Origin: a virus
Length of the DNA stretch: 29,448 nt
Reading direction: 5' to 3' (one strand)
IMG/VR virus record: IMGVR_UViG_3300030106_006094
Location: 7,859-37,306 of that record
In this document: positions 5,649 to 29,448 of the stretch, one piece after another
How the letters are laid out: the number at the start of each line of letters is the position of its first letter
Numbering within the stretch: position 1 is the stretch's first letter
Notes under the pieces: model-generated
Seen by the model: the letters and a program-made list of their open reading frames with translations, nothing else
Told to the model about the DNA's origin: nothing
The model's database searches: none
Made by a program: the position numbers and the translations under genes

Positions 5649-8600
5649 GTGAGTGAATTAGCCTTAGAAGACGAAATTGAAGTAGAAAACAAACCTGCAG
5701 AGGGAATGTCTGATTTACCGGGGGCTACCGCTCGGGTAAGTCCTGATTTAGAAACTTTTGTTAGGGTTGTGCGCCAATACGGATTGCCAGAAACTACTAA
5801 AGCTTACGTGCAAAAACAAGAGGGCGCTGGCCGTTACACGGAATTAAGAAACCAAGGCTTACGGAACATTGATATTCTTCCAATGTTCGTTAATTTTGAA
5901 AAGTTAGATGTTCCAGTAACAGATTATCAGGAACAGGGGTTATCTTTAAACGAAGCGTCCGCCTTGTTAGCTCAGGACATGGGCGTTGATCTCGATCAGT
6001 TAAGAACGGAAGACGGCACTTCTGCTTTAGAATTTTTGCAAACATTTGCTAAAGGACGGAAACTTACCACAGGAGAAGCTGCTGCGGAGGGCACTGCACG
6101 TGGAGCCACGGTGGGTATTCCCGCCGTAGCTGGCATGTCGGGAGCAATGTTAGCAGCAGCGTCACTTGCCACCCCTCCCGGAGCAGCCGTTATGGGCCTT
6201 ATTGGTTTAGGCGGTTTAATTGTCGGTGGTTACGGTGGGCAAAAGTTAGAAGAATTAATTTTTTCGTCTGACCCCGTTCTTGATCCCAATGCTTCCGCTA
6301 CTTTGGAAGCTTTCAAAACAGGAACAGAAATGTTGCCCGCTTTTGGTTTGCCTTATGCTTCACGTAAAGTGACTCAATACGCTTTAGGCAACCGAGGCCC
6401 CTTTGCAAATCATTTAAAAAACTATATTGAAAGTCGCAAATTCAATTTAACAACACGGGATCAAAAAATCTTCGAAGATTTAGAGCCCTATGAAATGAGC
6501 TTGATCAGATCAGATCCAGTGTTTGCACGTATTCAACGTATGTACCAAGAAAATCCTAAAGCGTTTATGGGCACAGAGTTAGTTGCAGGTGCGGGCACTA
6601 TGGCGGGCTCTTATCTTGCTGAACGAAACTACCCCGGACAAATGGCTCCTAAAGTGGGGCTTGAAATTGCTGGCGCAACTTTTTTTAGTCCTTTAACCGC
6701 GTTGCCATATTTTTTTGCTGGCAAAGGGTTTCTTCAAGATGTCATGCAAAAAGGAAAGGATTTACCACAGTCCGAACAAGAAGAGAGAATTGGAGCAGCT
6801 CTTGTTTCTTTGATGAGAGAATTAGGCGAGGAACCGCTTGAAATCCAAAGAAGGTTAAACGAAGGCCAGTTAACAAAATCTTTTGAAAGCCTCATTGAAG
6901 ATTATCCAGCACGAAGGTCTTTGTTAATGGAAGACTTAGACATCGTAATGACTCCTCGCCAACTCGCAGATAGCACTACCTTGAGTTATTTGGAAGCACG
7001 TCTTCGCCGTGAAAACGGTAAATTGAGTATGCAGATGCAAACTAATTACGATCAACAAGTAAAAGAAATATCTACTTTGATCAAGGCTTTAGCATCTACC
7101 GGCGATCCCGATGCTTTAAACGTTGCAGGAACCTTGCGAAAAAGATTTTTTGAAGAACAGATTGAACAATCCCTTGATGTTGCTTTACGAGATCAAACTC
7201 GTGTATACGAGCGGCTCAAACCAAAAACGTTAGATGCTCGAAACAAAGCCAGCGTAACAATCGATAACATTGTTATGAAAACTTTTGACGACGTGAGAAA
7301 ACAAGAATCTATTTTACACGAAGCAGTCCCAACACAGTTAGAGATTGGTCAGGGTAATCTTTTAAGCTCATTACGTGGAGAACTTCAAGATTTAGAACCG
7401 GCAGTCGCATTAGACGTTTTACCTCGAATAGTGCAAAACATCGGTAAAACTAACGACCAAAATTTACAAGCAATGATTTTGGATCAACAAATTGAGTTTC
7501 AACGAGGCGTGGTTGCTCGTCTCACTGCTCGCGGCAGCGCGGCAGAAAACTTAGTTAAAGTTAAACAACAACAAAAAATATTAACCGATTTACAAAAAGA
7601 TAGGGCCAAACTACCAGACGAGTTTCAACCTTTAACTTACGGACAGCGCAAAAGAACTCGTTCGGAATTGTTACGAATGGCCCGAGAAGCAGCTTCTGGA
7701 GAAAACCCAAGTTCAGTGAACTCCAGGTTGTACGGGGTTTTTGCACAAGCCATACTCAGAGACTTACACGACGTTGAAACAATACGAAACATCAACAATT
7801 TATCTGCGGACCAAGTAAACGAAATTGGCCCGGCAATAGATAAAGCCAACGCTTTTTCTACGGCTTTGAACGATGTTTTCAGAAGAGCTTTTCCAAACCA
7901 AATTTTGCGTGATAAATCAACTGGAGCTGATTTTGTTATTCCTGAGTTGATGTACAAAAAAATAATAGCTGGCGCCGATGACGAAACAATCTTACGTGTC
8001 AAAGAGTTAGACGATGCTATAGGGTTTTTAGTTAAAAACACGGCTCCTACGTTTGATGACGCTGTTGCTTATAAAGCAAACTCTTTAACGATGAGAGAGT
8101 CTTTGGACACTATTTTAAGGCACCTTGCTTACGACAGAAACATTATGAAACCTGATCCTGAAAACCCCGATCAGTTTCTTGTCGATCAAAACGCTTTGTA
8201 CAAATTTATAAAGGACAATGAACAAAGTCTTGATCAATTACCTACTTTAAAAAGCGATTTAGAAGACGCAAAAATATCTACGCAACTCCTTAACAAAGCT
8301 CGTTCTGACGTTCCTCAAGATGAGTTAGAGTTTTTTGATTCTGATTTGTTTTTTGAAGTTGTCGGAGAAAAACCCTACCTAGCTTTCGAAAGGATTTTAG
8401 ATCCAAAAAACCCCAATCCTCGACAACAACTTGAAAGTTTAATCAATACTTTGCGTGGCGCTGCCAGTTTACGAGCAGATGATCTTCAACAATCAAGTTC
8501 TCGCGGCACTCGCGTCCCACGAATTAACATACAAGACATTGACGATAAAATAAAAAGCTCTATTTTTGATTATGCTTTACAAAAAAACCAACCTAACATG

Positions 8601-9473
8601 TCAGAGCCTTTAAATTTTAACGGCATGTACGACACGTTTTTCAAACCTTTTCAATCAGGAGGTGCGCCTCTTGCTACTATTTTAGAAAAAGAAGGGGTAA
8701 TCACTGCAAGAGAACGTTTAAATTTACAAAAAATGCTTAAAGCAGGTCGTACTTCACAAGAAAAATTAAGTGCGCCTGATTTTGAAGTTGAAAAAGATTT
8801 AGAGACAGGCATGGATTTGTTGGTAGGCGCAGGAACACGGATCGCAGGTTCTCGTTTAGTAACCACCTTAGCTGATTTTATTCCTTTCACGCGAGGTCAA
8901 GGTCTAATCGAGGCCAACATAGGTGCTCAATACGCAAAAAAATTATTAGAAAGTATTCCAAAGTCTACGGTTAACGACGTATTAGAAGACGCAATTTTTG
9001 GACCGGAAGCTGCTGAAAATTTAAACCGTTTGTTGAAAAAAGGCATATTCCGCGTTAAAAGCGACAAACGAACAACAGCTACTCCACGAAAACGCGGCAT
9101 GTTGAAAAAAGCGTTATCTCGTTTTGCTGACGTGCAAAAACTTAACGCTTTCTTAATTCCTATCATCGGGGATTTTACAATCGATCAAGGTGGGGTTTTT
9201 GCTCCTGATGATTTTAGTCAGGAACGTTACGAAGAACTTCAAGAGTTTCGTAGCCAACCCAGCGGTGTACCCAGAGGCAGGAGTGGACGTAACGCGCCTA
9301 TCCAAACGTTTAATCCACCGGCCCCTGCAGCGGCTCCCCCGCCACAAGCTCAAGCTACACCACCAAACCCGCAGCTTAGACAACGCTACGCAGCCATGTA
9401 TCCCAACGACCCTATATCGGGCTTAATCGAGCAACAAGCCATGCAGACCGGCATTGGGACTCTACCTACCTAA
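5649..9473 (+). CDS. Giant probable internal virion/ejection protein
   Basis: 1274 residues from a GTG start at 5649, ten bases after the preceding stop. Residues 149-197 form a long Gly/Ala-rich hydrophobic segment and another weakly hydrophobic stretch lies near 305-360; the remainder is mainly charged helix. The C-terminus (about 1210-1274) is Pro/Gln-rich and ends in a compact motif around LRQRYAAMYPNDPIS. Size, last position in the structural block and membrane-like segments fit an internal core or DNA-ejection protein such as those of T7-like phages, but I see no lysozyme or transglycosylase active site. The final TAA overlaps the stop of the opposite-strand helicase gene. Confidence 0.75.
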   Translation: MSELALEDEIEVENKPAEGMSDLPGATARVSPDLETFVRVVRQYGLPETTKAYVQKQEGAGRYTELRNQGLRNIDILPMFVNFEKLDVPVTDYQEQGLSLNEASALLAQDMGVDLDQLRTEDGTSALEFLQTFAKGRKLTTGEAAAEGTARGATVGIPAVAGMSGAMLAAASLATPPGAAVMGLIGLGGLIVGGYGGQKLEELIFSSDPVLDPNASATLEAFKTGTEMLPAFGLPYASRKVTQYALGNRGPFANHLKNYIESRKFNLTTRDQKIFEDLEPYEMSLIRSDPVFARIQRMYQENPKAFMGTELVAGAGTMAGSYLAERNYPGQMAPKVGLEIAGATFFSPLTALPYFFAGKGFLQDVMQKGKDLPQSEQEERIGAALVSLMRELGEEPLEIQRRLNEGQLTKSFESLIEDYPARRSLLMEDLDIVMTPRQLADSTTLSYLEARLRRENGKLSMQMQTNYDQQVKEISTLIKALASTGDPDALNVAGTLRKRFFEEQIEQSLDVALRDQTRVYERLKPKTLDARNKASVTIDNIVMKTFDDVRKQESILHEAVPTQLEIGQGNLLSSLRGELQDLEPAVALDVLPRIVQNIGKTNDQNLQAMILDQQIEFQRGVVARLTARGSAAENLVKVKQQQKILTDLQKDRAKLPDEFQPLTYGQRKRTRSELLRMAREAASGENPSSVNSRLYGVFAQAILRDLHDVETIRNINNLSADQVNEIGPAIDKANAFSTALNDVFRRAFPNQILRDKSTGADFVIPELMYKKIIAGADDETILRVKELDDAIGFLVKNTAPTFDDAVAYKANSLTMRESLDTILRHLAYDRNIMKPDPENPDQFLVDQNALYKFIKDNEQSLDQLPTLKSDLEDAKISTQLLNKARSDVPQDELEFFDSDLFFEVVGEKPYLAFERILDPKNPNPRQQLESLINTLRGAASLRADDLQQSSSRGTRVPRINIQDIDDKIKSSIFDYALQKNQPNMSEPLNFNGMYDTFFKPFQSGGAPLATILEKEGVITARERLNLQKMLKAGRTSQEKLSAPDFEVEKDLETGMDLLVGAGTRIAGSRLVTTLADFIPFTRGQGLIEANIGAQYAKKLLESIPKSTVNDVLEDAIFGPEAAENLNRLLKKGIFRVKSDKRTTATPRKRGMLKKALSRFADVQKLNAFLIPIIGDFTIDQGGVFAPDDFSQERYEELQEFRSQPSGVPRGRSGRNAPIQTFNPPAPAAAPPPQAQATPPNPQLRQRYAAMYPNDPISGLIEQQAMQTGIGTLPT

Positions 9474-10915
9474 CTGAGCCACTGCTTGGTTTCTTCGCCT
9501 AATACCTGCGAAGCCAGACTAACCTTGTTTTTTAACGCTTTAATGATCTTTTCATCGACAGTGTTTGGACTAACCAAATCGACATACAAGACGTGGTGTT
9601 CCTGACCGATTCGATGCGCACGGTCCTCGGACTGTAGTCGTATCTCAAGATCGTAGGAGTTATTGTAATAAATGACGTTGGTTGCTTCTGTCAGGGTTAG
9701 TCCATATCCGCCGGTCTTTGGGTTAGCTACCAGAAAACGTAACTCACTGTCCGGTTCTTGAAACAAACTGACAATTTCATCCCTGTCGTCCTGAGAGGTT
9801 TGCCCGTAGAACACGGCCGACGAGTCATGCCCGTAACGAGTAGCCAAGGCATCCGCAATACGGCGAATGTCCCAAACGTAAGATGCCCAGATAATTACTT
9901 TACCCATCATCTCGTCCACAACGTTAAGCATCTCGCTCATTCGGTTGCTATCGAGTGCCTGTATGTCTCCATCGTCGGTGCGCAGGTGACCACAACAAAT
10001 CTCCTGCAATCGCATAATCTGGGTCAAAACGCTTTGCGTAGTAGAAAGCTCGCCCGCATCTAACATAGCTAACGCATATTCTTTCATTTGTTTGTAAGCT
10101 TTTTGCTGCTCATTCGTTAACTCTACATTGCGTGTCATATAAACTTTTTTGGGCAAGTCCAGACATTCTTCTTTCAATACCCTGTGTGAAAAACGATCCA
10201 GCTTTTGGTTCAACTCCCCCAGGTTACGGTAGCCTGTAATTTGTTGGAAACTGCGAGCCCCAAACTTGCGCTGTTGCACAACAGCGTAGCGACCCTGAAA
10301 CGCATAATAAGATTCAAACCCCAACAAACTCGAACCAAGGAACTCACACTGTGCATACAGGTCCATTGGAGTTTTAGTTATGGGAGAGCCTGTCAGGATG
10401 CGCTTGTACTTGGAGACCTTGCCTAACTTGACGATGTTTTTTGTCCGCTGGGCGTTACGGTTCTTGATTGAAGTGCTTTCGTCTACCACTACAAAGTTAT
10501 CCGGGTTTATTTCAAGGAACCGTTGAGCCACCTTTGTACCTTTTTGTGTGGACAAAGCTTCGGTGTTCATCACCAGAATGCGCAACACAGAGTTGTCTGT
10601 GCCTCGTGCGACTTCGGTCAGACGTTTCTTAAACTTCTGCGTCTGGTTTGGTTGCCAAAGCAAAAGGTCTACCTTAACGTTGTCTGACAAATGTTGAGGG
10701 ATCTCTTTGTTGACCCAGTTGCTATACACCCCCTTGGGGGCAATAATTAGGGCCGTGTTGATTTCACCTTCGGTAAACAACGTACCCATCGTGTCGATTG
10801 CCACTTTGGTTTTGCCCGTTCCCATCTCCATAAATAGGGCGTAAGCGGGGGTTTGCCAAGAGTTGTCGTAAGCCAGTTGTTGGTGTTGGTAGGGATCTGT
10901 TTTAAATTCGTACAT
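9470..10915 (-). CDS. SNF2/RapA-type superfamily 2 helicase
   Basis: 481 residues. Walker A MGTGKT at 31-36, DEST (Walker B/motif II) at 145-148, TGSPIT (motif III) at 175-180, then C-terminal motifs GGYGLTL and the SNF2 hallmark QSEDRAHRIGQ near 430. It should be an ATP-dependent dsDNA translocase, likely remodelling DNA-protein complexes or recombination/replication intermediates. Start chosen at 10915: AAAGAGG lies five bases upstream, and the promoter -10 (10940-10945) would start RNA near 10933, downstream of the alternative ATG at 10936. It is the only replication-type gene on the minus strand in this part, facing the structural block tail to tail with overlapping stops. Confidence 0.93.
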   Translation of the reverse strand: MYEFKTDPYQHQQLAYDNSWQTPAYALFMEMGTGKTKVAIDTMGTLFTEGEINTALIIAPKGVYSNWVNKEIPQHLSDNVKVDLLLWQPNQTQKFKKRLTEVARGTDNSVLRILVMNTEALSTQKGTKVAQRFLEINPDNFVVVDESTSIKNRNAQRTKNIVKLGKVSKYKRILTGSPITKTPMDLYAQCEFLGSSLLGFESYYAFQGRYAVVQQRKFGARSFQQITGYRNLGELNQKLDRFSHRVLKEECLDLPKKVYMTRNVELTNEQQKAYKQMKEYALAMLDAGELSTTQSVLTQIMRLQEICCGHLRTDDGDIQALDSNRMSEMLNVVDEMMGKVIIWASYVWDIRRIADALATRYGHDSSAVFYGQTSQDDRDEIVSLFQEPDSELRFLVANPKTGGYGLTLTEATNVIYYNNSYDLEIRLQSEDRAHRIGQEHHVLYVDLVSPNTVDEKIIKALKNKVSLASQVLGEETKQWLS

Positions 10916-10929
10916 TTTTGCCTCTTTAC

Positions 10930-10957
10930 TTGACATGAGATTATATGGGAGTATTCT
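10930..10957 (+). promoter_or_regulatory. Promoter for replication operon
   Basis: TTGACA at 10930-10935, 16-base spacer, TATTCT at 10952-10957. Predicted RNA starts near 10964, just before a hairpin, and reads into the gene at 11014. Confidence 0.65.
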
Positions 10958-10968
10958 TGGATTGGGAA
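10940..10968 (-). promoter_or_regulatory. Promoter for SNF2 helicase
   Basis: On the minus strand a perfect TATAAT (10945-10940) is preceded, 17 bases upstream, by TTCCCA as -35. It overlaps the plus-strand promoter, so the two transcription starts should compete. Confidence 0.6.
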
Positions 10969-11592: not shown

Positions 11593-12375
11593 ATGGCGAC
11601 GAAAGAAATAGCAGACAACGAAGAAAAAGCAGTTGCGCTAGTGGATTCAGCGTTGTTCGAGCAGGATGCTGGTGCGGGTATGGCAATGGAACAGGATGAT
11701 TTGGCATTGCCGTTTCTGAAAGTACTGTCAGCATTGGACCCTTTAATCCAAGAGGGTGAAATCGATGCAAAACCTGGTGATCTATTCAACACTGTGACCA
11801 ACACAGTCTATGCGGGTAAAGAAGGGGTGCGTGTAATTCCGTGCCACTACGAGCGTCGGTTTTTGATGTGGGCACCACGAGGCTCTGGAAGCGGCGCACC
11901 TACCGGTATTTATGGCCCGGCAGACGAGCGACCTGAAACCAAGCGCGACGAAAACGACAACAAAGACTACGTTGTCGGTGGGGAAGGCGAGTACATTGAT
12001 GAGACACACCAACATTACGTGGTGATACTGGAGGAAGATGGTTCGTTTAACACGGCCCTGATTCCCATGAAATCCACGCAGTTGAAGAAGTCTCGGAAAT
12101 GGAACAGCATGATTGCATCACGGACGATGACAAATGCGAAGGGGGAAGCGTTTCAGCCCCCGAGGTTCAGCCACGTATACAAGCTGTCTACCAGTTCGGA
12201 AAAGAACGACAAGGGCAGTTGGCATGGTTGGAATATAGAACTGGACGGAGTGGTTGAGGACGCGAATGTCTATAGAGCGGCAAAACTTTTTCATGAATCC
12301 ATCAAAGGTGGAGAAGTGACAGTAAAGCACACTCAGGAAGACACTCAAGCAGAGCGGGGCGACGACCCCTTCTAA
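11593..12375 (+). CDS. Putative single-stranded DNA-binding protein
   Basis: 260 residues. The body is a mixed beta-rich sequence (VRVIPCHYERRF..., HQHYVVILEEDGSF..., HGWNIELDGVV) without enzyme motifs. The C-terminus is acidic and ends in ERGDDPF, resembling the protein-recruiting acidic tail of SSB proteins (E. coli SSB ends DDDIPF; T7 gp2.5 also has an acidic tail). Location directly before the primase supports a role coating ssDNA and recruiting replication enzymes. The fold is inferred, not demonstrated; a recombination mediator is the alternative. Confidence 0.7.
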   Translation: MATKEIADNEEKAVALVDSALFEQDAGAGMAMEQDDLALPFLKVLSALDPLIQEGEIDAKPGDLFNTVTNTVYAGKEGVRVIPCHYERRFLMWAPRGSGSGAPTGIYGPADERPETKRDENDNKDYVVGGEGEYIDETHQHYVVILEEDGSFNTALIPMKSTQLKKSRKWNSMIASRTMTNAKGEAFQPPRFSHVYKLSTSSEKNDKGSWHGWNIELDGVVEDANVYRAAKLFHESIKGGEVTVKHTQEDTQAERGDDPF

Positions 12376-15720: not shown

Positions 15721-15932
15721 AGTCGCTTGAAGAACAGGTTGCTGGAGAGCATTACAAAACCCAGAAGATTCAGCCTATTGAATACATTCTGGCAAACAAA
15801 TTGCCCTTCATTGAGGGCAACATAGTGAAATATATCACTCGATGGCGTGAGAAAGGGGGTATTGAAGACCTGAAGAAGGTTAAACACTACACCGAAATTC
15901 TCATGGAGTATGAAAATGGACAAAGAAACTAG
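15717..15932 (+). CDS. DUF3310 family protein
   Basis: 71 residues. The core QPIEYILANKLPF...GNIVKYITRWREKGGIEDLKK is the DUF3310 signature, a small helical domain common in phages beside nucleotide-metabolism and replication genes. Its biochemical role is not established. ATGA overlap with the helicase gene and a 17-base overlap with the polymerase gene place it firmly in the replication operon. Confidence 0.9.
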   Translation: MKSLEEQVAGEHYKTQKIQPIEYILANKLPFIEGNIVKYITRWREKGGIEDLKKVKHYTEILMEYENGQRN

Positions 15933-17826
15933 ATTGCAGTTCCCTTTATTTACACCGAAAACTGAATGGACTGCCCCGTTTGAGCTAAAAGACCTGACGG
16001 GTGCTAAAGAAATTGCGATTGACTTAGAAACAAGAGACCCTCATCTGAAAGAAAACGGCCCCGGCTGGCCGAAAAAAGACGGAGACGTTGTAGGAATCGC
16101 TGTTGCGACTGAAGGCTTTGAAGCTTACTACCCTATCGCCCATGCAGGAGGAGGAAACTTAGACAAAAACGTGGTGTTGAAGTGGCTTAATAAACAATTG
16201 TCTACAAATTGTCCAAAAATTATGCACAACGCGCCCTACGACTTGGGCTGGCTCAAAGCACTGGGCACCACGGTTAACGGTCCTATTATCGACACAATGA
16301 TCATGGCTGCACTCTTGGACGAGAACCGATTTTCTTATTCACTGAACGCCCTATCTTACGATTACTTGGGCGAGGCCAAGTCAGAGAAGCTACTGACCGA
16401 AGCGGCGGTGGACTTTGGGGTAGACCCCAAGGCCGAGCTATGGAAGTTGCCTAGCCAGTTTGTGGGTCCCTACGCCGAGCAAGATGCCCGGTTAGCCTTT
16501 GATTTATATAAGTTTTTTAGGGTTGAGATTAATAAAGAGAACTTGGAAACGGTCTTCGACCTAGAGACTCGATTGACTCCCTGCTTGATAGACATGACCT
16601 TTCGAGGCATTCGGGTGGACATGGAGAAATGCGAGCGCACTAAGCAAGAGTTATTAAAACGAGAGAAGATCCTGCTCAAACAGATCAAGGACATGGCCGG
16701 TCAGGACGTAGAAATATGGGCGGCAGCGTCCCTTGCCAAGGCATTTGACAAGCTCAAGATCAAGTACGCTAGGACAGGGACGGGACAGCCGTCTTTTACC
16801 AAGTCCTTTTTGTCCGAGCACCCGCATGAGTTTGCCAAACTTGTGGTACAGGCGCGTAACCTGAACAAGATACAGGGCACGTTTGTCACCTCGATTATGA
16901 AGTATGTGTCGAAAGAGGGCCGCATCCACGGACACATCAACCAGTTACGATCTGACGATGGCGGCACCGTCTCGGGCCGACTGTCGATGGCGAATCCTAA
17001 TTTGCAACAGATCCCGGCACGTGACCCAGAACTCGGTCCCTTGATCCGCAGTTTGTTTCTCCCGGAAGAAGACGAGCAATGGGCGGCTATCGATTTCAGT
17101 CAACAGGAGCCAAGGATTTTGACGCACTACGCCTCGGTGTTTGGTGAGTGGAAGGGTTCACCACTGGGCGGGGCCAAGGAATTTGTTGATGCCTACACCA
17201 ACGATCCAGAGACAGACTTTCACACAATGGTAGCCGAGATGGCTCAGATTCCACGCAAACAGGCCAAAACCATTAACCTGGGGATGATGTACGGCATGGG
17301 CGTTAAAAAGCTTTCTGAGCAACTGGATCTGGATATTGATGAGGCGAAGAGTCTGACCGAGCAATACCACTCCAGAGTGCCGTTTGTGAAGCAGCTTATG
17401 GCTGGCGTATCACGCAGCGTGGACAAGAAAGAGGATGGCGCAATCCGTTCACTGAAAGGACGCAAGTGCCGGTTTAATATGTACGAGCCGATAGGCTATG
17501 ACCTACAGAAAGCCATGCCTAAGAAGGAGGCAAAGGCGGCCTACGGGGACACCACGCCCCTGCGCCGTGCGTACACGTACAAGGCCCTTAATCGACTGAT
17601 ACAGGCTTCTGCAGCGGACATGACGAAACAAGCGATGGTGGACTTATATGAGGCGGGAGAACGACCTCTGCTTCAGGTCCACGATGAACTTGGTTGTAGT
17701 GTGCAGGACTTGGCCCACGCAAAACGGATCAAAGAGGTGATGGAGAACGCCATACCGCTCAGGGTTCCCAACAAATGTGACATTGACCTTGGACCTAGCT
17801 GGGGCGAGACAAAAGAGGTTAAATGA
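15916..17826 (+). CDS. polA: DNA polymerase I family (family A) with 3'-5' exonuclease
   Basis: 636 residues. Exonuclease: DLE (36-38), HNAPYD (104-109), YAEQD (186-190), so proofreading should be active. Polymerase: motif A AIDFSQQEPR with Asp393, motif B RKQAKTINLGMMYG with Arg447, Lys451, Leu455 and Tyr459, motif C QVHDE with Asp590. Leu455 aligns with E. coli Pol I Phe762 (T7 Tyr526). No 5'-nuclease domain is present, as in T7-like enzymes. ATG 15916 is preferred over 15910 because GGAG at 15905-15908 sits seven bases before it. Replicative polymerase of this phage. Confidence 0.97.
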   Translation: MDKETRLQFPLFTPKTEWTAPFELKDLTGAKEIAIDLETRDPHLKENGPGWPKKDGDVVGIAVATEGFEAYYPIAHAGGGNLDKNVVLKWLNKQLSTNCPKIMHNAPYDLGWLKALGTTVNGPIIDTMIMAALLDENRFSYSLNALSYDYLGEAKSEKLLTEAAVDFGVDPKAELWKLPSQFVGPYAEQDARLAFDLYKFFRVEINKENLETVFDLETRLTPCLIDMTFRGIRVDMEKCERTKQELLKREKILLKQIKDMAGQDVEIWAAASLAKAFDKLKIKYARTGTGQPSFTKSFLSEHPHEFAKLVVQARNLNKIQGTFVTSIMKYVSKEGRIHGHINQLRSDDGGTVSGRLSMANPNLQQIPARDPELGPLIRSLFLPEEDEQWAAIDFSQQEPRILTHYASVFGEWKGSPLGGAKEFVDAYTNDPETDFHTMVAEMAQIPRKQAKTINLGMMYGMGVKKLSEQLDLDIDEAKSLTEQYHSRVPFVKQLMAGVSRSVDKKEDGAIRSLKGRKCRFNMYEPIGYDLQKAMPKKEAKAAYGDTTPLRRAYTYKALNRLIQASAADMTKQAMVDLYEAGERPLLQVHDELGCSVQDLAHAKRIKEVMENAIPLRVPNKCDIDLGPSWGETKEVK

Positions 17827-17827
17827 C

Positions 17828-17856
17828 TTGCGATAATTCGCATAGGGTCTTATACT
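17828..17856 (+). promoter_or_regulatory. Promoter with TGCGA inverted repeat, upstream of regulator
   Basis: TTGCGA (17828-17833), 17-base spacer, TATACT (17851-17856). The -35 overlaps a perfect inverted repeat, TGCGA-TAAT-TCGCA (17829-17842). The predicted start is 17863, the A of the ATG, so the message would be leaderless. Confidence 0.72.
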
Positions 17857-17862
17857 TTACGC

Positions 17863-18057
17863 ATGGACACAGAAAAGTGGAAATCAGTTTTGGTCCCGGT
17901 GCCAGTGTACCGAGAGATCAAAGAAATTGCGCAGATGGAAGATCGTTCGATCAGCGGACAGCTACGCAAAATATTCAAAGAATGGAAGGAAGATCGGATT
18001 GCCGAAGCGGCAGAAATCGATCAAAATAGTTTAACTACTTTTTCGGCAGAAAAGTAG
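17863..18057 (+). CDS. Putative ribbon-helix-helix transcriptional regulator
   Basis: 64 residues with the layout of an Arc/CopG-like ribbon-helix-helix domain: a strand at 6-13 (WKSVLVPV), helix A at about 15-26, a turn (EDRS) and helix B at 29-44, then a short acidic tail. Such proteins bind operators as dimers through the strand. No ribosome site precedes the ATG, and the promoter upstream places +1 on or next to the ATG, as for leaderless lambda cI mRNA from PRM. The TGCGA inverted repeat in this promoter suggests autoregulation (inference). An overlapping frame starting at 17823 is judged spurious. Confidence 0.75.
   Translation: MDTEKWKSVLVPVPVYREIKEIAQMEDRSISGQLRKIFKEWKEDRIAEAAEIDQNSLTTFSAEK
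18035..18057 (+). promoter_or_regulatory. 8-bp hairpin over the regulator stop codon
   Basis: CTACTTTT (18035-18042) and AAAAGTAG (18050-18057) pair perfectly around a seven-base loop; the 3' arm contains the TAG stop. It begins the stem-loop series that fills the following gene-free stretch. Confidence 0.65.
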
Positions 18058-18275
18058 AGGCAGGGGTCTACTTCGACCCAGTTGGCCCGTGTCCCGTCCG
18101 GGTTGCCGAAGACGGGATAATTTGTTAGTTTTAGGGGTAGAAGAAGTCCCCTAGCTTCTTTAGAAGAGTAGCCAAGGCTCTTCGTCTCAAGACAAACCTG
18201 AGTCTTAACACCGCTCGGGCATTCCTTAGCCGGGCCTTAGCTTTGCCGAAGTTAAGGCCCGGTCCCTTTTTTTAC
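18058..18275 (+). ncRNA. Candidate structured RNA / 3' UTR with serial stem-loops
   Basis: No gene fits this stretch on either strand. It can form successive stems: 18064-18068/18075-18079 (GGGTC/GACCC), 18092-18098/18111-18117 (TCCCGTC/GACGGGA), 18132-18137/18148-18153 (TAGGGG/CCCCTA), 18163-18168/18178-18183 (GAAGAG/CTCTTC, alternative to a small stem at 18155-18166), 18189-18193/18202-18206, and the terminator. Every stem was found by eye; no folding was run. It would be co-transcribed with the regulator, either as a structured 3' UTR or as a processed small RNA. It matches no RNA family I recognise. Confidence 0.5.
18230..18275 (+). terminator. Strong intrinsic terminator of replication/regulator transcripts
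   Basis: A 14-bp stem (18230-18243 with 18249-18262, one G-T wobble) holding CCGGGCCTTA/TAAGGCCCGG, loop TGCCG, followed by TCCCTTTTTTT. It is correctly oriented to end plus-strand transcription coming from the polymerase and regulator genes. Confidence 0.92.
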
Positions 18276-22324: not shown

Positions 22325-22352
22325 TTTATATTGGTCTTGATAGGTATGCGAA
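22325..22352 (-). promoter_or_regulatory. Promoter of the minus-strand operon
   Basis: On the minus strand TTCGCA (22352-22347), 16-base spacer, TATAAA (22330-22325). Its -35 lies inside the spacer of the plus-strand promoter, so the two cannot be occupied together. Predicted leader of about 90 bases containing an unused AGGAGGTG ribosome-like site near 22280. Confidence 0.55.
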
Positions 22353-22365
22353 AATATGGTAAAAT
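22337..22365 (+). promoter_or_regulatory. Promoter of the rightward small-gene unit
   Basis: TTGATA (22337-22342), 17-base spacer, TAAAAT (22360-22365), each 5 of 6 to consensus. A TGCGA pentamer (22347-22351), also found in the regulator promoter, lies in the spacer. Confidence 0.72.
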
Positions 22366-22370
22366 ATAGG

Positions 22371-22435: not shown

Positions 22436-22465
22436 TACAATTTAAACAACTAAACGGAGGTGCTT

Positions 22466-23698: not shown

Positions 23699-24247
23699 AT
23701 GGCAGAACAGGTAATTAAGAAAGAAACCAGAGGCCGACCTCGGGTTAGTGAGGCGACCCGACTGACCGGGAAACAGGTCAAGTTTGTTGAACTGGTTGCA
23801 ACCCGAGAAGGTCAGGACACTTTGCAGAACCTAGCAATCGAAGCTGGGTTTAGTCCGAAGGGTGCGAACACCCGAGCATACGAAATGCTCAACCCCAGGA
23901 TTTCTCCACATATATGCAAGGCGTTGCGTGAACGCAGAGAACAGCTTGCTGAAAAGTATGAAGTGACCTATGCCAGACACATTCGTGATCTTCAGAAGAT
24001 CCGTGATGATGCTCTTGCCAACGGAGCTTACTCGGCGGCAGTGCAAGCCGAAAAGGCGAGAGGGTTAGCGCAGGGTAATATCTATGTGAACAAGAGCGAG
24101 ATCCGTCATGGGTCGATTGATTCCATGAGCAAGGAACAAGTCAAAGAAGCACTAAACGAACTCAAGCGTCAGCTTGGGGAAAAGGTGGTTGTTGATGTCG
24201 AGCCAGAGCGAGTCGAGCTTCTGGAAGACGCTCAAGTGGCACATTGA
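23699..24247 (+). CDS. terS: Terminase small subunit
   Basis: 182 residues. After a basic leader (KKETRGRPRVSEATR) comes the phage small-terminase helix-turn-helix pattern, LTGKQVKFVELVA ... LAIEAGFSPKGANTRAYEML (about 22-65), then an oligomerisation helix region and an acidic tail. It recognises viral DNA and recruits the large subunit for packaging. No good ribosome site precedes the ATG. Unusually, about 5 kb of small genes separate it from the large subunit. It directly follows the repeat-rich candidate origin/packaging region. Confidence 0.85.
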   Translation: MAEQVIKKETRGRPRVSEATRLTGKQVKFVELVATREGQDTLQNLAIEAGFSPKGANTRAYEMLNPRISPHICKALRERREQLAEKYEVTYARHIRDLQKIRDDALANGAYSAAVQAEKARGLAQGNIYVNKSEIRHGSIDSMSKEQVKEALNELKRQLGEKVVVDVEPERVELLEDAQVAH

Positions 24248-24602
24248 AAAATCAGGGGCCGATGTTGTATTAACTCGGATCGAGAACTCCCAGACTCCCG
24301 GTATCCCCGATCTTCTTTTTTGTGACCGCAAGCGCAACCTGCATTTGATTGAGTTGAAGGTAGCCACGGGTTGGAAACCTAAACTCAGTCCTTTTCAAAT
24401 TAGTTTTGCTGTTCGGCACCAAGCTGCAAGGGCGTGGGTGTTGATCCAGAAATGGCAAAAGGATGAGAATGAAATCTACCTGTACCGTGCCGATCAGGTT
24501 ATGAAACTGATGGAGAAAGGCATGAAAGGAGTTAAACCGAAAGAAGTGTTTACGTTGCCGGTTGGTCTGGAACGGTTTTTGATAGCCCTTGAGGATTTCT
24601 GA
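24195..24602 (+). CDS. VRR-NUC domain nuclease
   Basis: 135 residues from ATG 24195 (53 bases inside the terminase gene, AAAGGTGG upstream). PD-(D/E)xK nuclease core of the VRR-NUC type: Asp39 in GIPDLLF, Glu53 and Lys55 in IELK, Gln68 in SPFQ, followed by the VRR-like basic region around VRHQAARAWVLI. Phage members are thought to resolve branched DNA; here it may trim replication or recombination intermediates before packaging. Overlap with the terminase gene suggests coordinated expression. Confidence 0.9.
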   Translation: MSSQSESSFWKTLKWHIEKSGADVVLTRIENSQTPGIPDLLFCDRKRNLHLIELKVATGWKPKLSPFQISFAVRHQAARAWVLIQKWQKDENEIYLYRADQVMKLMEKGMKGVKPKEVFTLPVGLERFLIALEDF

Positions 24603-24643
24603 TGAGTCATATAGGATGAATCCCATGAGTAGTTTTAATGTAC

Positions 24644-26834: not shown

Positions 26835-26864
26835 AACCTGGCTAAATAAAAACCTCCGTTTATG

Positions 26865-26889
26865 CCCCGCTATATGCGGGGTTTTTTTT
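26865..26889 (+). terminator. Intrinsic terminator (CCCCGC stem)
   Basis: CCCCGC-TATAT-GCGGGG followed by eight T. Just upstream, CCTCCGTTTA (26853-26862) is complementary to the TAAACGGAGG leader found before several genes. Confidence 0.93.
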
Positions 26890-26901
26890 GTCGTCTAGAT
26901 A

Positions 26902-27395: not shown

Positions 27396-27420
27396 CCCCG
27401 CCTAGTGCGGGGTTTTTTTT
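27396..27420 (+). terminator. Intrinsic terminator (cassette copy 1)
   Basis: CCCCGC-CTAGT-GCGGGG followed by eight T; same stem as the terminators at 26865, 28205 and 28695. Confidence 0.93.
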
Positions 27421-28192: not shown

Positions 28193-28230
28193 CGATCCAA
28201 ACGACCCCGCCGTGCGCGGGGTTTTTTTTG
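28193..28230 (+). repeat. 38-bp terminator repeat, copy A
   Basis: Identical over 38 bases to 28683-28720. Contains the whole terminator stem and T run. Confidence 0.92.
28205..28229 (+). terminator. Intrinsic terminator (cassette copy 2)
   Basis: CCCCGC-CGTGC-GCGGGG followed by eight T. Ends the two-gene unit 27473-28182. Confidence 0.94.
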
Positions 28231-28232
28231 TC

Positions 28233-28270
28233 TGCGATCTTTCTTATACTGTCAGTCCAACTAAATGGAG
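28233..28270 (+). promoter_or_regulatory. Promoter/leader module (copy 2)
   Basis: TGCGA (28233-28237), TATACT (28245-28250) and CAACTAAATGGAG (28258-28270), with the same 12-base offset between TGCGA and TATACT as in the 27424 copy. Confidence 0.65.
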
Positions 28271-28682: not shown

Positions 28683-28720
28683 CGATCCAAACGACCCCGC
28701 CGTGCGCGGGGTTTTTTTTG
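28683..28720 (+). repeat. 38-bp terminator repeat, copy B
   Basis: Identical to 28193-28230, but here no promoter/leader module follows; the GC-rich island starts instead. Confidence 0.92.
28695..28719 (+). terminator. Intrinsic terminator (cassette copy 3)
   Basis: CCCCGC-CGTGC-GCGGGG followed by eight T, closing the accessory-gene region. Confidence 0.94.
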
Positions 28721-29202: not shown

Positions 29203-29448
29203 ATGAGCCTTAGTCTTGAAACTTTTGACGAAACACAACAATTACGCCTAGAACTGCGTCTGAAGCAGTTAGAGAAGCTTGAAGCTTGTCAGGATGAATT
29301 TATTCCATTTGTAAAAAGCATGTGGCCCGGATTCATTGCAGGGCGGCACCACTACATTATTGCCGAGAAGTTAGAAGAAATTGCGAGCGGCAAGTTAAAA
29401 CGTTTGATCATCAACATGCCTCCGCGGCACACGAAGAGTGAATTTGCA
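29203..29448 (+). CDS. terL: Terminase large subunit, N-terminal part
   Basis: 82 residues before the window ends. After a coiled N-terminal helix comes DEFIPFVKSMWPGF and then LIINMPPRHTKSEFA, with the variant Walker A PPRHTKSE at 73-80, typical of phage TerL packaging ATPases. It should power DNA translocation into the prohead and cut concatemers. The ATG has no clear ribosome site. A possible -10 (TATTCT, about 29169-29174) lies upstream. Truncated only by the window. Confidence 0.93.
   Translation, partial: MSLSLETFDETQQLRLELRLKQLEKLEACQDEFIPFVKSMWPGFIAGRHHYIIAEKLEEIASGKLKRLIINMPPRHTKSEFA

Follow-up and report, generated by a model that had tools for sequence, protein, structure and literature searches.

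A ribbon-helix-helix regulator gene with a predicted leaderless mRNA and tandem 10-bp candidate operators in phages related to pelagiphage HTVC023P

The small gene following the DNA polymerase gene in the phage DNA studied here, which has relatives beside the polymerase gene of many uncultured marine phages, probably encodes an autorepressor of a small multi-promoter regulon in a lytic marine phage, with an mRNA that would be leaderless in this clade. By sequence comparison at the family level, its 64-residue product is a ribbon-helix-helix (RHH) protein. The analysed stretch, referred to as the window, comprises 29,448 nucleotides of the IMG/VR record IMGVR_UViG_3300030106_006094 (positions 7,859 to 37,306), and coordinates are those of the window unless stated otherwise. 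The features of the RHH locus are listed below.

15910-17826, plus strand: DNA polymerase gene of family A (Pfam DNA_pol_A, 5.5e-65), lying beside the RHH gene
17828-17833, plus strand: TTGCGA, the -35 hexamer, separated from the polymerase stop codon by a single base and kept in L001-L010
17829-17842, no strand: perfect TGCGA-TAAT-TCGCA inverted repeat (arms 17829-17833 and 17838-17842), probably not an operator
17830-17839, plus strand: imperfect upstream decamer GCGATAATTC, a GATnnnTC variant; the GATnnnTCnYATA form recurs in the window
17840-17859, plus strand: tandem decamer GCATAGGGTC-TTATACTTTA, candidate operator matching 9/10 pattern positions and overlapping the spacer, the -10 hexamer and the discriminator
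17851-17856, plus strand: -10 hexamer TATACT, forming the top-scoring promoter with TTGCGA at a spacer of 17
17863-18057, plus strand: gene of the 64-residue RHH regulator, predicted +1 at the A of ATG 17863
18229-18270, plus strand: intrinsic terminator with compensatory changes in its stem, which would end a monocistronic transcript

The polymerase gene ends with the stop codon 17824-17826, and the promoter occupies the gap between the two genes. The preliminary description had placed the RHH gene at the end of a replication operon; it does sit at the 3' end of the run of replication genes, with a promoter of its own. The start codon is firm, as no in-frame ATG, GTG or TTG occurs in the window back to the upstream stop, and the N-terminus MDTxKWKS is kept in the relatives. 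An alternative open reading frame in another frame, 17823-18029, was discarded since its ATG is missing in relatives, e.g. in L005.

The best Pfam family for the protein was RHH_5. The window's protein (P0001) alone reached 0.015 with this family, below the cut-off, whereas all 12 members of the family alignment were matched (best 1.6e-6) and the curated cut-off was exceeded in 3 genomes, which bears out the earlier assignment of an RHH-like product. The nearest solved sequence in the PDB was AvtR, a viral RHH regulator (E 0.0011). In the AlphaFold model, helices were predicted at residues 13-25 and 30-62 with a mean pLDDT of 90-95 over residues 11-40; the N-terminal strand, which is formed only in the dimer, was left without assignment. 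The leading Foldseek matches of the model were the RHH-type DNA-binding proteins CdbA, MatP, Arc and CopG, with AvtR and SvtR further down; the best E value was 0.06 and none was below 0.05, as is usual for so short a chain. Residues W6, S8 and L10 were invariant in the family; an alignment to CopG would place them on the DNA-facing side.

At least 147 relatives of the protein were found in IMG/VR, and 80 loci were fetched for comparison of the neighbourhood. In all 80 loci the RHH gene lay next to a DNA polymerase gene, or to its remnant at the end of the contig, wherever the contig extended that far. In the window's clade (clade A) and in more distant clades it is codirectional with and downstream of the polymerase gene; in clade B (L011-L026) the two genes are convergent. 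The L001 contig starts 120 bases before the RHH gene with other sequence there, and its similarity to the window begins just before the -35 hexamer, which indicates that the promoter and the RHH gene move together. A tblastn search with the window's protein yielded no relatives in the cultured phage collection, and one peptide-pattern scan of cellular genomes yielded none either. The nearest polymerases, with about 54% identity, belong to pelagiphage HTVC023P and to the phages 023Pt_psg01 and DSL-LC04. With the family profile, divergent RHH relatives were detected in HTVC023P (E 3e-5), HTVC027P (E 0.0053) and 023Pt_psg01 (E 0.21), the homology of the last two being weak. These divergent pelagiphage-type proteins share the start D/A-x-x-K-(W/Y)-K-S. 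All three genes, 8538-8759 of HTVC023P (L237), 11641-11820 of HTVC027P (L239) and 10602-10778 of 023Pt_psg01 (L240), are annotated as "hypothetical protein" and resemble divergent members of the RHH family.

The sequence confirms the previously reported TTGCGA/TATACT promoter with its 17-base spacer. Between the -10 hexamer and the ATG (17863-17865) lie the six bases TTACGC. A scan of the region gave 3 promoter-like sites against 3.1 in shuffles, and the promoter match of the window is not significant by itself. The weight lies in the comparison of relatives. In clades A and B a promoter ending 5-7 bases before the ATG was the top-scoring one in 9 of the 12 distinct upstream regions and the third in the other 3, while in shuffled upstream regions such a promoter was the top match in 2.8%. 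In all relatives outside these clades the top promoter ended 23-39 bases before the ATG, and nearly all of these leadered relatives have a Shine-Dalgarno site. The -10 hexamers differ between clade A (TATACT) and clade B (GATAAT-like, at a shifted place) and the 5-7-base spacing is constant, so it is the distance that has been kept and not the hexamer. This conservation of the geometry argues that the leaderless arrangement is more than chance. In clade A the only purine located 6-8 bases after the -10 hexamer is the A of the ATG, on which transcription most likely starts; the start at 17863 proposed earlier is thus predicted from the clade-conserved spacing. The claim that a ribosome site is absent was upheld: the RHH gene has no usable Shine-Dalgarno site, the sole pairing being AGGG about 15 bases from the ATG, and most genes of the window carry sites of the GGAG/AAGGAG type.

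The mRNA could nevertheless have a leader, if the gene were expressed through read-through from the polymerase operon and its translation relied on reinitiation or did without a Shine-Dalgarno site. The codirectional position of the RHH gene, 36 bases behind the polymerase gene, is in line with read-through. However, in sister clade B the gene lies on the strand opposite to the polymerase gene with an identical promoter geometry, the promoter travels with the gene in L001, and elsewhere in the family the gene has a good promoter of its own. A leadered mRNA is regarded as unlikely.

Clades A and B form one branch of the polymerase tree (support 100/100) and the outgroups are leadered; leaderlessness therefore looks to have been derived once, which is the most simple reading of the tree. 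In clade A 36-37 bases lie between the polymerase gene and the ATG; the leadered relatives have at least 60 there, and in clade B the preceding open reading frame ends 31-40 bases upstream of the RHH gene. The difference in gap between leaderless and leadered relatives amounts to about one leader. In the simplest explanation, the leader was lost when the space behind the neighbouring gene was compacted.

The segment downstream of the RHH stop codon, 18058-18270, folded far better than its shuffles (z about -5) and was kept in close relatives up to the terminator. Among seven close relatives a clear compensatory change was present in the terminator stem only, and the Rfam search of the 3' region gave no match to a known RNA family. 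A new RNA in 18058-18270 is not claimed.

The preliminary description had also pointed to the inverted repeat as the likely target of the protein. The perfect TGCGA-TAAT-TCGCA repeat overlapping the -35 hexamer is indeed there, with its arms conserved in L001-L004 and L008-L010. Its palindromic GA-N4-TC recurs in the GATnnnTC sites and may be one dimer site of a larger array. Yet an equal inverted repeat arose in 20% of the shuffles of 17820-17865 (the density in the window is 0.37 per 46 bases), the repeat is broken in L005-L007, whose proteins are 77-79% identical, and it was looked for in clade B and the leadered clades and was not present. The operator role was rejected as very improbable. 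The repeat overlaps the decamer array and may be a remnant dimer site.

A different element was common to the aligned upstream regions of the RHH genes, a tandem 10-bp direct repeat NYATANNNTC-NYATANNNTC located in the spacer and over the -10 hexamer. This repeat, which partly overlaps the inverted one, is the candidate operator. Most of the 26 distinct upstream regions scored 9-10 of 10, against about 6.3 in shuffles, although the pattern had been read off the same family and related sequences are not independent. In a held-out test, the pattern was fixed and nine upstream regions were set aside by dissimilarity, most of them fetched later; eight of the nine scored 9-10 (among them L052, which closely resembles an earlier sequence) and the shuffles averaged 6.0-6.7. 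The operators of clade A are degenerate and the weakest of the family, and L005 and L006 retain one clear decamer. Tandem repeats thus lie in the own promoter of a viral RHH gene, and this promoter usually holds the best or a near-best decamer site of its genome.

Related sites recurred elsewhere in the phage genomes. The related form GATnnnTCnYATA (GATNNNTCNYATA) occurred 8 times in the window against 0.18 expected, and exceeded one occurrence in 0 of 100 shuffles. This form had been noticed from three of the eight sites, and its excess rests on the other five and on their position. The counts of ATAnnnTCnYATA were 6, 9, 8 and 5 in the related genomes G009, G006, G005 and G013, respectively, where 0.5-1 were expected, and most of these sites immediately preceded another gene's Shine-Dalgarno site and start. 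The full two-decamer pattern with two mismatches allowed was at chance level in the window, so only the stricter patterns carry weight. The sites in the window were the following.

10937-10958, minus strand: ATACTCCCATATAATCTC, a weak candidate operator within the SNF2-type helicase promoter
22340-22367, minus strand: candidate operator ATATTTTCGCATA upstream of a leftward operon of small genes
24601-24622, both strands: overlapping candidate sites, poorly kept in L007
24908-24920, plus strand: candidate operator before gene 24943 (DUF6874), identical in L001 and partly kept in L007
26083-26095, minus strand: candidate operator before gene 26121, matched by GATCTATCGTATA in the corresponding position of the L008 genome
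27425-27444, plus strand: candidate operator GCGATTAGTC-TTATACTGTC before gene 27473
28234-28253, plus strand: candidate operator GCGATCTTTC-TTATACTGTC before gene 28265

In clade A relatives, sites were found again at the same places upstream of the leftward operon and of genes 24943, 26121 and 27473. For the leftward operon, the L004, L007 and L008 genomes have a similar site in the corresponding position, and GATTAGTCCTATA preceded the ortholog of gene 27473 in the L008 genome. The repeats were thus found at other viral promoters, with a mixed result for the helicase promoter, whose homologs scored 10/10 in L213 and L214 and near chance in several other genomes. No PADLOC defence-system match was obtained for the target genes.

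The decamer could also be a phage promoter consensus only, an extended -10 with its spacer read by the host RNA polymerase, in which case the RHH protein would bind elsewhere or have another role. The motif overlaps the -10 hexamers everywhere and sits at many promoters, TATAAT alone predicts some conservation of ATA, and a part of the conservation of the decamer is conservation of the promoter; because of this overlap a sigma70-only reading is possible. HTVC023P, despite its RHH relative, showed no excess of sites. In contrast, neither the conserved TC pairs nor the 10-bp phase is a feature of sigma70 promoters, and the ranking of the RHH gene's own promoter among the sites of its genome is another argument against a mere consensus. 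The motif was at chance level in DSL-LC04, where no RHH relative was found; HTVC027P and 023Pt_psg01 had a few motif sites, one in the promoter of the own RHH-like gene, and the occurrence of the motif at own promoters of RHH-like genes in two pelagiphages points in the same direction. A promoter consensus without a role for the RHH protein is considered improbable, though less so than a leadered mRNA.

According to the preferred reading, autorepression together with control of several promoters, RHH dimers would bind tandem repeats of 10 bp, NYATANNNTC and in this clade GATNNNTC as well, located between and over the -35 and -10 hexamers of the gene's own sigma70-type promoter and of several other phage promoters. 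A dimer on each decamer would cover the promoter and exclude the host RNA polymerase. The accumulating protein would limit its own synthesis and shut down a small set of phage promoters; repression rather than activation is what we infer, and the timing within the infection is likewise presumed. In clades A and B the promoter would fill the short gap behind the neighbouring gene, with transcription from the A of the ATG, and the resulting leaderless mRNA would end at the terminator 18229-18270.

The gene had been proposed to be part of a phage switch. Six genomes of the group, whose records may be fragments, gave no match to Phage_integrase PF00589 (tyrosine integrase), and the control for this search was matched in 14 of 14 genomes. 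Since no tyrosine integrase was found, a lambda-type lysogeny switch is unsupported and was rejected; a feedback repressor in the lytic cycle appears to fit better. Many RHH proteins are antitoxins, and autoregulation is typical of them, which would suit an antitoxin of a type II toxin-antitoxin pair. However, the gene has no codirectional partner, the next gene lying on the opposite strand about 300 bases on with the terminator in between. A toxin-antitoxin pair was dismissed as highly improbable.

Repressors of the Arc/CopG type bind adjacent sites cooperatively and repress their own genes, and Arc acts in a temperate phage. The window's protein resembles them in fold, by the Foldseek matches, and differs in sequence (15-18% identity) and in the operator. 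In Sulfolobus many mRNAs are leaderless, and leaderless viral RHH genes may be ordinary in Sulfolobus viruses. The closest known system in its working appears to be F55 of Sulfolobus spindle-shaped virus 1, a viral RHH protein with tandem repeats at several early promoters and its own (PMC5569661). Common to both are a small viral RHH protein and tandem repeats at several promoters including its own; F55 represses by covering promoter elements, and repression is proposed here. F55 belongs to an archaeal virus with a lysogenic state and has ATAGATAGAGT-type repeats over BRE/TSS, whereas the window has a sigma70-type bacterial promoter and belongs to phages in which no tyrosine integrase was found. 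AvtR (AFV6) and SvtR (SIRV1) are also viral RHH regulators, of archaeal viruses; SvtR is an autorepressor with three further binding sites, while AvtR differs in having two fused RHH motifs and an inverted-repeat consensus (PMC5569661). Leaderless mRNA is described for lambda cI from PRM and for PaaR2, both HTH regulators, and was proven for PaaR2 by 5' RACE and N-terminal sequencing (PMC8630535). These share with the RHH gene a phage-type regulator, operators in the promoter region and a leaderless mRNA, the latter only predicted here, and they differ in being HTH proteins, in having divergent promoters and in coming from temperate or cryptic prophages. In the Aca8-type early regulons of archaeal viruses, a shared regulatory sequence stands before numerous small early genes and also before the gene of the repressor proposed for them (PMC11065993). 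The common regulatory sequence before small genes and the proposed repressor gene are similar; the predicted winged HTH, the archaeal promoters and the anti-defence roles shown for Aca8 systems are different.

Viral RHH repressors (F55, SvtR, Arc) and leaderless cI and PaaR2 are thus known already. In the titles and abstracts of open-library papers on ribbon-helix-helix, phage and leaderless, the combination was not described; the RHH family and its combination with a leaderless mRNA appear new. Little is known of how transcription is controlled in uncultured lytic marine phages, and a readable operator would allow co-regulated genes to be predicted from sequence, including small unannotated ones that may act on the host. 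The leadered relatives and the leaderless clade offer a natural before/after series for the loss of the leader of a repressor mRNA. More tentatively, and as a possibility rather than an expectation, this apparently undescribed RHH family may govern an early-gene regulon of lytic marine relatives of the HTVC023P-type pelagiphages via the tandem 10-bp operators, with only the regulator's mRNA having passed from leadered to leaderless in one branch and the targets keeping Shine-Dalgarno leaders. If true, translation control of the repressor would be separate from that of its targets, and the small genes that share this operator would become candidates for host takeover or anti-defence.

Some minor observations were made along with the motif searches. 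ATAAAATCGCATA was located about 10 bases before an ATG at position 23991 of G005 (minus strand, L236) and at position 29239 of G013 (plus strand, L231), both in record coordinates, and these sites possibly represent a second leaderless start under the same motif. In the window, the leader CAACTAAANNGR at 22447, 23143, 24924, 26099, 26922, 27454, 27638 and 28258 (8 against 0.16 expected) stands just before the Shine-Dalgarno site of many right-arm genes, several copies following a candidate operator by a few bases. G+C-rich terminators resembling one another (CCCCGC...GCGGGG, then T8) were present at 26860-26890, 27400-27420, 28200-28220 and 28690-28710. In two cases a GCGATnnnTC-TTATACTGTC promoter comes after the terminator at a distance of no more than about 30 bases, which gives repeated terminator-promoter cassettes of this type before small genes. 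The segment 28740-29110, just before the start of the terminase large subunit, is G+C-rich and without a convincing gene, and contains repeated GGAAGTCATTTTTTAAC.
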